Shown: piece by piece, positions 563 to 47,927 of the stretch
Layout: every line of letters starts with the position of its first letter
How positions within the stretch are numbered: position 1 is the first letter of the stretch
Assembly (NCBI GenBank): GCA_019973575.1
Contig: BPUI01000001.1
Span: forward strand, 992,001-1,056,000
DNA from: Gemmatimonadetes bacterium T265
GTDB taxonomy: Bacteria; Gemmatimonadota; Gemmatimonadetes; Gemmatimonadales; Gemmatimonadaceae
Length of the DNA: 64,000 nucleotides
Direction: 5' to 3'
Position numbers and translations under genes: made by a program
The notes under the pieces: model-generated
Seen by the model: the letters and a program-made list of their open reading frames with translations, nothing else
The model's database searches: none
What the model was told of the DNA's origin: nothing

Positions 563-939
563 GCGGGCCGGTCGGATCGTTCGCGGTGGTGCCGCTGACG
601 GTTGTGCTGCACCCGGGTCGGGGCCGTCCCGCCGGCCCATGAACGGCCGGGGTCGGTAACGCAGCTGGGGTGGTGCAGGGGATGGTACGGCTGGGGATGG
701 TGGGGCCGGGGTCTGGGCGAGGGCAGCGCGCCAGTCCCGGCGGGACTGACGACTGGAGACGCGGGCCCCGGCGGACCGAGGCCGTCCCCCGCCCCGGGTG
801 GACCGACCCCGGGTTCATCATCGCCTGCAGCATCCCCGCTGCCCCACCGACCCCGGCCGTTCACGGACCCGCGCAACGGGCCACCCCGGGTGCAGCACGA
901 CCGTCAGCGGCACCACCGCGAACCGTACGACCGGCCCGC
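563..939. repeat. Long imperfect inverted repeat between convergent genes
   Basis: This fills the gap between the PAP2 gene and the leftward SDR gene. The left arm (563-687) is complementary to the right arm (817-939) over about 120 bp with mismatches; 580-602 matches the complement of 900-922 over 23 bp and 640-657 matches the complement of 846-863 over 18 bp. The spacer is about 130 nt. Frames reading through it carry the same peptide pattern on both strands, which reflects the repeat and not coding. It could act as a bidirectional terminator-like hairpin or be a decayed mobile element; no transposase or flanking target duplication is seen. Confidence 0.75.
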
Positions 940-41514: not shown

Positions 41515-41573
41515 TTCGGCCCGCGCGCGCGGCGCGCGTGCCGCCCCTCTTACCACTCCGCAGGAGCCGCGGC

Positions 41574-43067
41574 ATGCCCGCTTTGGACCAACTAGAGACG
41601 AACCCGATCGGGACGCCCCCGCCGGGCGCGGCGTCGCTCGCGGGCGCGCCGCTGCCCGACGCCCCCGCCCCGCCCGTCCCGACGCCCGCGTTCTGGGCCT
41701 CGGTGCGCGAGGCGCTCGCGGGCAGCCACCACGACTTCAGCACCGGCCCGCTCGGCCGCGCCATCCTCCTGCTCGCCGTGCCGATGGTGCTCGAGATGGC
41801 GATGGAGAGCGTGTTCGCCGTGACCGACGCGTACTTCGTCGGCCGGCTCGGCGCGGACGCGCTCGCCACCGTCGGCCTCACCGAGTCGATGCTCGCCGTC
41901 GTCTACGCGCTCGCGATGGGCCTGGGCGTCGGCGCGACGGCGGTCGTCGCGCGGCGCACGGGCGAAAAGGACCCGGCCGGCGCGGCGCGCGCGGGCGCGA
42001 CGGCCGTCGCGATGGGCGTCGCGCTGTCGCTCGTGTTAGGCACCGCGGGCGCGCTGCTCGCCCCGCGGCTGCTCGCGCTCATGGGCGCGCCGCCGGGGGT
42101 GCTCGCGACCGGCACCTCGTACGCGCGCGTCATGCTCGGCGGTGAGGCGAGCATCATCCTGCTCTTCGTCGCGAACGCGATCTTCCGCGGCGCGGGCGAC
42201 GCGGCGATCGCGATGCGCACGCTCTGGCTCGCCAACGGGATCAACATCGTGCTCGGGCCGCTGCTCATCTTCGGCCCGGGCCCGTTCCCCGCGCTCGGCG
42301 TGACCGGGGCCGCGGTCGCGACGACGATCGGGCGGAGCACGGGCGCGCTCTACGCGCTCTGGCGGCTCACCCGGCCGACGAGCCGCGTGCGCGTGGCGCG
42401 GCGCGACTTTGCCTTCGACCGCGCGGTCGTCGGGCGGATCGTCGAGGTGTCGGGCGCGGCGGCGGCGCAGTCGATGATCGGCACGGCGAGCTGGATCGGG
42501 CTCGTGCGCGTGATGGCGACGTTCGGCGCGCCGGCCCTCGCGGGCTACACGATCGCGATGCGGATCATCGTCTTCGCGATCCTCCCCGCGTTCGGGATGA
42601 GCAACGCCGCCGCGACGCTCGTCGGCCAGGCGTTGGGCGCGCGCGACCCGGCGCGGGCGGAGCGCGCGGTGTGGACGACGGGGCACTACAACGCGGCGTT
42701 CCTCGGCGCGCTGGCCGTGGTCTTCGTCGTCGCCGCGCCGGCGCTCGTCGGCGTCTTCACGCGCGACCCGGCGGTGCTGCACTACGCGACCAACGGGCTG
42801 CGGGTCGACGCGCTCGGGTTCCCGCTCTACGCCTACGGCCTGGTACTCGCGGCGGCGTTCAACGGCGCGGGCGACGCGCGCACGCCGACCGTGCTCAACC
42901 TGCTGGTGTTCTGGGCGTTCGAGATCCCGGTCGCGTACGGGCTGGCGGTCGGGCTCGGGATGGGGCCGCAGGGGGTGTTCGTCGCGATCGCGCTGGCGTT
43001 TTCGATGCTGGCGGTGGCGAGTGGGGGGGTGTTTCGGAGGGGGAGGTGGAAGACGCAGGTGGTGTAA
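41574..43067 (+). CDS. MATE-family multidrug/metabolite exporter
   Basis: 497 residues from the ATG at 41574, with AGGAG 8 nt upstream. After a 50-residue polar start there are 12 hydrophobic helices in two similar halves: PLGRAILLLAVPMVLEMAME, VTDAYFVGRLGADALATVGL, then FRGAGDAAIAMR and, in the second half, GAAAAQSMIGTASW and FNGAGDARTPTVLNL. These are MATE family marks (FVGRLG and GAGDA-x-x-A/P). It would expel cationic drugs or metabolites using H+ or Na+. Its long structured leader suggests regulation. The end faces a very long inverted repeat. Confidence 0.93.
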   Translation: MPALDQLETNPIGTPPPGAASLAGAPLPDAPAPPVPTPAFWASVREALAGSHHDFSTGPLGRAILLLAVPMVLEMAMESVFAVTDAYFVGRLGADALATVGLTESMLAVVYALAMGLGVGATAVVARRTGEKDPAGAARAGATAVAMGVALSLVLGTAGALLAPRLLALMGAPPGVLATGTSYARVMLGGEASIILLFVANAIFRGAGDAAIAMRTLWLANGINIVLGPLLIFGPGPFPALGVTGAAVATTIGRSTGALYALWRLTRPTSRVRVARRDFAFDRAVVGRIVEVSGAAAAQSMIGTASWIGLVRVMATFGAPALAGYTIAMRIIVFAILPAFGMSNAAATLVGQALGARDPARAERAVWTTGHYNAAFLGALAVVFVVAAPALVGVFTRDPAVLHYATNGLRVDALGFPLYAYGLVLAAAFNGAGDARTPTVLNLLVFWAFEIPVAYGLAVGLGMGPQGVFVAIALAFSMLAVASGGVFRRGRWKTQVV

Positions 43068-43076
43068 CGCCGTTGT

Positions 43077-43622
43077 CGTCCCGCTGTTATCGTCCCGCGG
43101 TAGCCGTCCGCGCCCGGGGGAGGGCGGGGCGGGTGGCTCAGAGACCCGGTGGTGCAGGGGCGGGTGGGGCGACGGGGCGGGCGGGACGTCGCGGGGCGTG
43201 TACGTCGGGGGCGCAGCGGGACGTGCGAGATGGCGCGGCATGGGTGGGGCATTCCGGGGAGAACCGTGCGAGTGCCACGACGCGAGTAGGGCGGCGGGTT
43301 GGGCGAAAGGGGCGGGCGGCGGGTACGGCGCGGCGGGTACCGCGGGGCGGGCCGGCGCCCGCCCCCCGCCCGTCTCGTCCCGCCGTGAGGCCCCGGCGAA
43401 CCGCCCGTTCCGTCTCGTCGTGCCCGTCGCGCTCCACCCGGGGTGCCTTACCCGCCACGCGCCATCTCGCACTTTCCGCTGCGCCCCCCGACGTACACGC
43501 CCGCCGACGGCCCGCCCGCCCCGTCGCCCCACCCGCCCCTGCACCACCGGGTCTCTGAGCCACCCGCCCCGCCCTCCCCCCGGGCGACGACCGCTGCCGC
43601 GGGACGATAAAGGCGGGACGGA
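43077..43622. repeat. Very long inverted repeat between convergent genes
   Basis: Left arm about 43077-43320, right arm about 43370-43622. Bases 43118-43185 are perfectly complementary to 43511-43578 (68 bp), and similarity continues on both sides with mismatches. It fills the 565-nt gap between the MATE and outer-membrane-protein genes. Frames crossing it give near-identical peptides from both arms on opposite strands, which is explained by the repeat. No transposase, target duplication or palindromic end is seen. Confidence 0.9.
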
Positions 43623-43632
43623 TACAGCGGCC

Positions 43633-44871
43633 TCACCTCCTCTTCCCCACCCTCCCCGCACTCGTCACCACCCCCGCGTACCACGCGTGCGCCTGCGGCC
43701 CCGTCACCGGCACGATCGTCCCGAAGTCCACCGCCAACTCCGGCCGCACTACGAACGTCGGCCCCGTGAGCACCGCGACGACCGGCGCGCTCCCGGCCGG
43801 CCCGCTCGTCCCCGGGTAGCCGTAGGTCTCGAGCGCCCAGCCGAGGCCCCCGCGTACCGGGATGCCCGCGGCCGCTGCCCACAGCGTGGAAGTCCGCGGT
43901 GCCCGGGTCCCGTCGCCCGTGCGCCACGTCGCGCCGAGGTTGAGGTCGAGGCTCGCCGGGCCGAGGGTGCGCGAGTTGATGAGCAGGAGGCTCGCGTCGG
44001 TGGTGCCCGTGCCGCGCGCGCCGCCCGTGGCGAATTTGATCGACGGGAGGAGTGCGACGTCCTGGAGGCGCGGCCGGTCCTCGCTCACCCGCCACTTGAG
44101 GCCGACCGCGACGTCGCCGACTCCGAACGCGGTACCGGTCGCCGCGGCGGCGGGCAGTTGCAGGGCGAGCTGGGTGCGCGGGCCGAGGCCGAGCTTGAGG
44201 AGCGTGGGGACCGAGACGGCGTGCGTGCCGTCGCCGGGCGCGTCGCGTTCGACGCCGCTCTCCACCTCCGCGTACCCCGGCGCGACCGTGCCCGCGTGCG
44301 TCGCCACGCTCGGCCGCTCGGGCTGGACGGCGCGCGGGTGGAAGGCGCCGGCAGACGCGGGGCTGGGGGCGGCGGGCGACGGGGCGGGCGGCGGGGCGGG
44401 GGCGGGCGGTGCGCCTAACGGAGCGGGCGGTGCGCCTAACGATGCGGGCGGCGCGGCGGGCCCGCGCTCCAGCAGCACGCGGCCGCCCGTGTGGTGCTGC
44501 CCGGCGTAGCCGCGCAGGACGAGCCGCCGCCGCGGGACGTCGGGCGCGCCGGCCTCTCCCGCGCCGCCGGCCCGCACGGTGTCGACGACGAACGCCGCGC
44601 ACGAGGCCGCGTCGCGCCCGGGGCGGCGCACGAAGCAGAGGGCGGGGGCGCCGTCGGCCGTCGCGCCGAGCGACCAGCGGCCGAAGTAGCGCCGCTCCTC
44701 GCGGCGGCGGCCGTCGGGGCCGACCCGCACGCGGAGGAGCGCGTCGGCGCCGTCGGGGGCGAGCACCCAGACGCTCGTGTCGCCGGAGGCGGTCTTCGCG
44801 AGGTCGACCCACTGCCCCGCCGCGGCGGGGCGCGGCGGGGAGACGCGCGGCGGTACGCCGATCGGTCTCAT
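43633..44871 (-). CDS. Outer-membrane beta-barrel-like protein with N-terminal extra domain
   Basis: 412 residues from the ATG at 44871. Residues 20-140 form a Cys-containing beta region (SVWVLAPDGADALLRVRVG, GRWSLGATADGAPALCFVR). A Pro/Ala linker (PAPPPAPSPAAPSPAS) leads to a C-terminal barrel opening YAEVESGVERDAPGDGTHAV with LKLGLGPRTQLALQLP, VGDVAVGLKWRV and LLPSIKFATG, the pattern of the MetA-pathway phenol-degradation-type transporter family. No signal peptide is seen at this start, which is odd for an outer-membrane protein; the gene starts 17 nt after the previous one, so the true start is unsure. Confidence 0.65.
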   Translation of the reverse strand: MRPIGVPPRVSPPRPAAAGQWVDLAKTASGDTSVWVLAPDGADALLRVRVGPDGRRREERRYFGRWSLGATADGAPALCFVRRPGRDAASCAAFVVDTVRAGGAGEAGAPDVPRRRLVLRGYAGQHHTGGRVLLERGPAAPPASLGAPPAPLGAPPAPAPPPAPSPAAPSPASAGAFHPRAVQPERPSVATHAGTVAPGYAEVESGVERDAPGDGTHAVSVPTLLKLGLGPRTQLALQLPAAAATGTAFGVGDVAVGLKWRVSEDRPRLQDVALLPSIKFATGGARGTGTTDASLLLINSRTLGPASLDLNLGATWRTGDGTRAPRTSTLWAAAAGIPVRGGLGWALETYGYPGTSGPAGSAPVVAVLTGPTFVVRPELAVDFGTIVPVTGPQAHAWYAGVVTSAGRVGKRR

Positions 44872-46755: not shown

Positions 46756-47649
46756 TCAGCCTGCCTCGGCCATCATCCCCATCGCGTGGTAGCCCTTGTC
46801 GACGTACACCGTCGCGCCGGTGATCCCCCGCGCGAGGTCCGAGGCGAGGAACGCCGCCACGCCGCCGACCTCCTCGGGGCGCGTCGGCTCGGGGAGCGGG
46901 GTGTTGGCCGCCGCGTAGCGCACCATCCGGTCGATGATCCCGATCGCGCTCGCCGCCCGGCTCGCGAGCGGGCCGGCCGAGATCGTGTTCACGCGCACCC
47001 CGTACTTCCGCCCCGCCTCGTAGGCGAGGAGCCGCGTGTCGCTCTCGAGCGCGGCCTTCGCGCTCGACATCCCGCCGCCGTAGCCCGGGACCGCGCGCTC
47101 GCTCGCGAGGTAGGTGAGCGACGCGAACGAGCCGCCGTCGCGCAGCACGGGGCCGAGCCGCTGGACCATGCTGACGAGCGAGTAGGCGCTCGTGCTCACC
47201 GCGGCCAGGTACCCCGCGCGGCTCGTCTCGAGCAGCGGCTTCTTCACCTCGGGGCCGTTGGCGAGCGAGTGCACGACGACGTCGAGCGGGCGCTCGCCGA
47301 AGTCGGCGACGAGGCGGTCGGCCATCCCCTGCACCGAGAAGTCGCCGGTCTCCTTGTACCGCTTCGACTCGCGCACGTCTTCGGGCGCGTCGTCGAGCGT
47401 GTCGTACATGGCGTCGAGCGGGTAGATGCGCTCGAACTCGAGGAGCGAGCCGTCGGCCAGGCGCCGCGACTCGTCCATCTTGCCGCGCTCGAGCAGGTTG
47501 CGGAAGATCGTCAGCGCGGGGGGCCAGGTGGCGACGCACACCGTCGCCCCGGCGGCGGCGAGGGCCTTGGCGATCGCGAAGCCGTAGCCGTTGTCGTCGG
47601 CGACGCCCGCGACGAGGGCGCGGCGGCCGGAGAGGTCGATAGGGAGCAT
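46756..47649 (-). CDS. fabI: Enoyl-ACP reductase FabI, long (plant/Chlamydia-like) form
   Basis: 297 residues from the ATG at 47649; a TTG 9 nt upstream is less likely. It opens [20 protein letters not shown] (NADH site) and carries [14 protein letters not shown] and the catalytic [13 protein letters not shown] with the Tyr-x6-Lys pattern (about 186-196), then [13 protein letters not shown]. The insertion around [20 protein letters not shown] is shared with plant and some bacterial long-form enzymes. FabI makes the last reduction of fatty-acid elongation and is the target of triclosan. It is convergent with the TonB-like gene. Confidence 0.93.
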
Positions 47650-47705
47650 GGGAGACAAAGTAAGGGTGGCGGGGGAGAGGATGCGGTCGGGGCGGTACGG
47701 CCGGT

Positions 47706-47902
47706 GGGGCGGCGGGGACGGCGCTGTTAATGCGACAGCGGTTGGTCGGGCGCTGTTGATCCGGCTGCGGTTGGTGAGGCGGCCCGCTCGGCCTGACTTC
47801 CCCGGCCTTCCCGCCGTTCCAACCGCCGTCTCACCAACAGCCGTCTCACCAACAGCTGCCCCATCAACCGCGCCCGATCAGCAGCGCCGTCCTCGCCGCC
47901 CC
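47706..47902. repeat. Long imperfect inverted repeat
   Basis: Left arm 47706-47782, right arm 47826-47902, 77 nt each with about 80 % complementarity and a 43-nt spacer. The right arm also has a 15-nt direct repeat (CCGTCTCACCAACAG twice). It lies between two leftward genes, downstream of the Sua5 gene and upstream of fabI, so fabI's promoter must be within or just after it. Confidence 0.7.
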
Positions 47903-47927
47903 CGCCCGCCGTTCCGATCCCCCGCCC

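Follow-up and report, generated by a model that had tools for sequence, protein, structure and literature searches.

The window analysed here is a whole stretch of 64,000 nt from contig BPUI01000001.1 of Gemmatimonadetes bacterium T265 (positions 992,001 to 1,056,000). In it, a gap of 565 nt (43068-43632) separates two convergent genes: a MATE efflux gene on the plus strand (41538-43067; PF01554, E 6.6e-53), whose stop codon (43065-43067) borders the element on its left side, and a minus-strand gene on the right (43633-44871; composition-based gene call), whose stop lies at 43633. The initial annotation had described this gap as filled by an inverted repeat with similarity over roughly 240 nt per side and no transposase, and each of these points was confirmed. 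The palindrome is 544 nt long (43077-43620) and contains no ORF; its alignment with the reverse complement covers 564 columns at 80%. Its perfect arms, given in the initial annotation as 68 bp (43118-43185 and 43511-43578), are indeed exact but slightly longer, at 70 bp (43116-43185 and 43511-43580). They belong to a 5' arm of 99 nt on the plus strand (43113-43211) and a 3' arm on the minus strand (43485-43583), which are 96% complementary and enclose the inner halves of the palindrome (43212-43484). The outer left end (43068-43109, plus strand) follows directly after the MATE stop and consists of three directly repeated 14-nt (2x7) units, CGCCGTT-GTCGTCC, CGCTGTT-ATCGTCC and CGCGGTA-GCCGTCC. 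The outer right end (43584-43632, minus strand) is made of degenerate inverted 14-nt units that run as far as the stop codon of the minus-strand gene. Ten randomised versions of the window (order-2 Markov) contained perfect inverted repeats of at most 15-18 bp, compared with 70 bp in the real sequence. The earlier view that perfect arms of such length need a reason to persist was upheld. RNA folding, proposed at that time as a check, gave -543.9 kcal/mol for the palindrome and -347 ± 7.5 kcal/mol for shuffled sequences (z -26). No Rfam match was found in the window, and the palindrome had no match in the plasmid collection.

We used the gap as a BLASTN query against the strain's own genome (5.63 Mb, 6 contigs). 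Results showed that the palindrome is not the lone repeat it had seemed: it is one of five dispersed copies of a family, here called F1, and another copy carries an S23/IVP gene and no transposase. The other copies were located at C1:964450-965008, C1:1512941-1513434, C1:2787408-2788345, where other sequence separates two F1 arms, and C1:1934433-1934643, which is a single arm only. An assembly artefact was rejected and is very unlikely, because diverged copies (88%, 84%, 84% and 84% identical) exist at other loci of the same genome, three of them inverted repeats themselves. The window copy and the copy at L017 are close sisters, and the inner halves of F1 fall into a left and a right type common to several copies (both with L017 and L018, the right type partly with the copy at C1:2787408-2788345). 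The boundary of the aligned flanks was not clear on inspection, and the aligned copies allowed neither exact ends nor a target-site duplication to be assigned. A plain heptamer periodicity was sought within the F1 arms and not found; only a weak signal at 14 was seen, and the core is not an array. Among 59 genomes belonging to the strain's family and order, F1 gave only three short matches (~60 nt), none of comparable length.

The copy at C1:2787408-2788345 (L019) lies between nadB and nadA and is the fuller one. Its arms, 98.3% identical over 177 nt, enclose a 130-codon ORF of family PF05635 (23S rRNA IVP / S23; E 2e-25). The AlphaFold model of this protein is a four-helix bundle (pLDDT 94), and its nearest PDB structures were 2gsc (TM 0.8-0.9) and 2rld, both of the S23/IVP family, followed by the Avd rings of DGRs (TM about 0.7 to 4dwl and 8ub7); the similarity between IVP and Avd was likewise pointed out in PMC10053308. 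The adjoining nadB ends RSDYPQARLVRSAP and has lost the conserved C-terminus, which in relatives reads RSDFP..KWxGKHIEW; in some relatives nadA lies within a few dozen bases of nadB. Insertion of the element into the end of nadB would be expected to cause such a loss. At the level of sequence, these comparisons showed that F1 is dispersed and that one copy with an intact IVP gene coincides with the loss of the nadB C-terminus. Because this copy carries an intact IVP gene, the window copy is best read as an ORF-less, MITE-like derivative. The IVP gene is present in just one of five F1 copies, so the link between F1 and IVP depends on that single copy and could reflect a chance nested insertion. 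Different palindromes occupy the nadB-nadA gap in two other genera (L099 and L105); in one of the two, the palindrome is a GAGCGTC heptamer array without an ORF. With three palindromes in three genera, and none in others, the gap appears to be a recurrent insertion site. One of the genome's four IVP genes (L027, C1:852873-853175) has an in-frame TAG, which indicates that IVP genes are decaying in this genome.

IVP genes (PF05635) were found in 79 of 99 relatives, with up to 14 copies each. Direct reading of their flanks revealed units of 7 nt or 8 nt, repeated in tandem on one side of the gene and present as the complement on the other. At a threshold of >= 30 bits, an inverted repeat flanked the gene in 22 of 28 full loci of relatives and in 0 of 45 control nadA/MATE loci of the same set; since these were the best-scoring IVP loci, and the controls came from the same genomes by a different selection, the percentages for IVP flanks do not represent a random sample. 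When GTDB genomes were scanned, 80 IVP loci from many phyla were obtained. Among the 71 tested, 44 had inverted-repeat flanks, compared with 5 of 213 positions elsewhere in these loci, and 38% had none at the threshold used. When relatives and many phyla were taken together (99 loci), a strongly periodic stretch was present in 127 of 198 IVP flanks (64%) and in 7 of 99 control stretches (7%). The period was 7 in 85 of these flanks, 14 in 19 and 8 in 13, and the arrays were typically inverted across the gene. In a member of the Planctomycetota (L161), an IVP gene lies between 244-nt arms, 87% identical, of degenerate CGGTGGA-like units; this is a long-armed form resembling F1 in another phylum.

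An occupied and an empty site could be compared in another genus. In G066, GAGCGTC arrays stand on both sides of an IVP gene. The orthologous site is empty in G015, a member of the same genus whose flanks are 85% identical, as well as in G016 and G014, of other genera: only some 60 nt separate the two neighbouring genes there, and both the arrays and the IVP gene are missing. The alignments thus showed an array-IVP-array unit in one species that is absent at the relatives' orthologous site. From this we infer that such a unit inserts as a whole and is mobile. Doubled GAGCGTC occurred at 74 sites in G015 and 198 in G066; the reversed control gave 0, as did the forward motif in two other genera. 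Inverted pairs made up 12 of 34 and 20 of 28 of the GAGCGTC clusters listed for the two species, the remainder being single exact arrays. Most of the inverted pairs among the sites listed span 40-170 nt and could not accommodate an IVP gene, which is found in a single pair of 507 nt. In G015, an unrelated 144-nt palindrome (L115:2953-3096) was seen directly behind the MATE orthologue (70% identical).

In the strain's own genome, CGCTGTT-N7-CGCTGTT occurred at 90 sites, mostly in inverted clusters, with 0 for the reversed control, and one cluster adjoins the IVP gene of L027. At both of its outermost ends, the window palindrome resembles this 14-nt unit, with 1 mismatch at 43068, 2 at 43082 and 3 at 43609-43629 (minus strand). 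Loose matches in the whole window numbered 11 against 6.3 expected, a count not above chance, so the weight rests on the position of the matches at both ends of the palindrome. A degenerate inverted array of CGCTGTT-type 14-nt units was also observed at 47693-47916 of the window, upstream of a fabI-like gene (46756-47649, minus strand), and is probably a further ORF-less array pair of the same kind.

Taken together, we consider it probable that the window palindrome is an ORF-less, MITE-like copy of the dispersed element F1, whose fuller form carries an S23/IVP gene between its arms, and that F1 represents, in this genome, a wide class of elements whose IVP gene is flanked by inverted arrays, most often of 7-nt units. 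The window copy would have arisen by loss of the IVP gene or by insertion without it. Spread may proceed via a folded hairpin, of RNA or single-stranded DNA, which a pentameric Avd-like IVP ring might bind, and joining would be done by host or other enzymes. Copies would then persist mainly where they are least harmful, beside stop codons and in convergent gaps, where F1 may also end or insulate transcription.

The placement of the copies bears on the strongest rival. A second family of large palindromes, F2, is present in the window (563-939), where it measures ~377 nt and is 74% self-complementary. The genome holds four more full-length F2 copies, a partial one on C2 and fragments, mostly in convergent gaps; no IVP gene was seen in F2. 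A common family of F1 and F2 was rejected, as the ~60% similarity in a permissive alignment was not convincing. Convergent gaps held 8 of 11 F1/F2 copies, compared with 32 of 186 adjacent gene pairs (17%; p 8e-5, composition-based gene finder), and most F1/F2 ends lie 0-20 nt from a stop codon; plain arrays had no such bias. A role as a transcription barrier or double-stranded RNA, raised in the initial annotation, is compatible with this placement. F1, with F2, could accordingly be an independent palindromic repeat that serves as a giant bidirectional terminator or an RNase III/dsRNA barrier and has an IVP gene as a passenger, and the extreme RNA fold of the window palindrome also speaks for it. 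However, no T-run was read at 43060-43080 or 43615-43635 on either strand, so the palindrome is not a canonical intrinsic terminator, and F1 also sits in two tandem gaps, one of them nadB-nadA within a gene cluster. Moreover, the convergent bias would arise both from purifying selection against other insertions and from use as a barrier. We regard this rival as unlikely.

Far less probable is an ordinary MITE moved in trans by a resident DDE transposase. F1 is non-coding, with terminal inverted repeats and dispersed copies, as such an element would be, but the aligned copies showed neither sharp common ends nor a target duplication on inspection, the arms are 100-240 nt long, and the fuller copy encodes IVP and no transposase. 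Other mobilising enzymes were sought as well. Neither reverse transcriptase (PF00078, RVT_1) nor Y1 transposase (PF01797, Y1_Tnp; RAYT) had a match in the own genome or in the IVP-rich relatives G019, G006, G004 and G009; among the 99 relatives, PF00078 was found in 14, compared with 79 for IVP. Both enzymes were rejected as mobilisers, and the data lend no support to RAYT-type movement or to retrotransposition by an enzyme of the genome itself. To our knowledge, no catalytic activity has been described for the four-helix-bundle proteins of the IVP family.

Arm homogenisation by gene conversion, one of the reasons for persistence put forward earlier, was borne out in part, as the two arms differ at 0, 2, 10 and 10 positions within one F1 element and at a mean of 15 between elements (outer 116 alignment columns). 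A palindrome formed in situ by template switching, kept identical by gene conversion and not mobile, would fit the tendency of arms to resemble each other more closely within one element than across elements, as well as a palindrome that reaches beyond the part common to all copies, but we find it hardly credible given homologous copies at five unrelated loci and the insertion signature in nadB.

The preferred reading, an F1 element with an IVP-bearing fuller form, has partial counterparts among known systems. The 23S rRNA IVS of Coxiella and Leptospira carry S23p, replace hairpin loops and were described as sporadic and selfish (Warrier 2016, PMC4990558). F1 is likewise a stem-loop with complementary ends, with a PF05635 ORF between the arms of the fuller copy and none in the window copy; unlike the IVS, it lies in intergenic gaps of protein genes (MATE/protein gene; nadB/nadA) rather than in an rRNA gene, and it is multi-copy, with large arms and ORF-less derivatives. 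Like MITEs and REP-BIME with RAYT, F1 is palindromic, intergenic and dispersed, with ORF-less copies beside rarer coding ones, but it has no transposase in its fuller copy, no Y1/RAYT in its genome, and is far longer than REPs (20-40 bp). The IVP fold resembles Avd of DGRs, whereas the reverse transcriptase of DGRs (PF00078) is missing from this genome. Heptamers near stop codons, GGGAATC and GGGGA(T/C)T, were reported from Xanthomonas and Nostoc, two Xanthomonas genomes having about 70 inverted pairs each, and were interpreted as quadruplex-forming SSRs without mobile-element association (Rehm 2015, PMC4692102). In our set, IVP genes of Luteimonas (L214), Nostoc (L180) and Anabaena (L220) are flanked by closely similar heptamers; in contrast to the present reading, Rehm 2015 nowhere mentions IVP genes (term search). 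For TAACTGA direct repeats, a mobile origin was speculated (MacGregor, PMC4679880). Our literature search, of incomplete coverage and hence no basis for a priority claim, returned no paper that connects IVP genes with heptamer arrays or with inverted repeats in intergenic regions.

A broader proposal is quite possible, though it falls short of probable: IVP (S23) genes may be the hallmark of a class of mobile inverted-repeat elements that occurs throughout bacteria and has no recognised recombinase or reverse transcriptase, with the heptamers of Xanthomonas, Nostoc and others, together with giant palindromes, as their ORF-less derivatives. As far as we know, S23/IVP proteins have for decades been seen only as passengers of insertions in 23S rRNA, and heptamer repeats between genes have counted as unexplained SSRs. 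If IVP genes are generally flanked by inverted heptamer arrays and insert together with them as one unit, the two puzzles become one testable question, namely how an element whose sole gene encodes a small, non-enzymatic-looking four-helix ring spreads through bacterial genomes, and giant palindromes in convergent gaps would gain a named source. In the present genome, all F1 copies and all 90 exact (CGCTGTT-N7)2 sites lie on contig C1 (2.99 of 5.63 Mb), which may be a separate replicon or have a history different from that of C2-C6.
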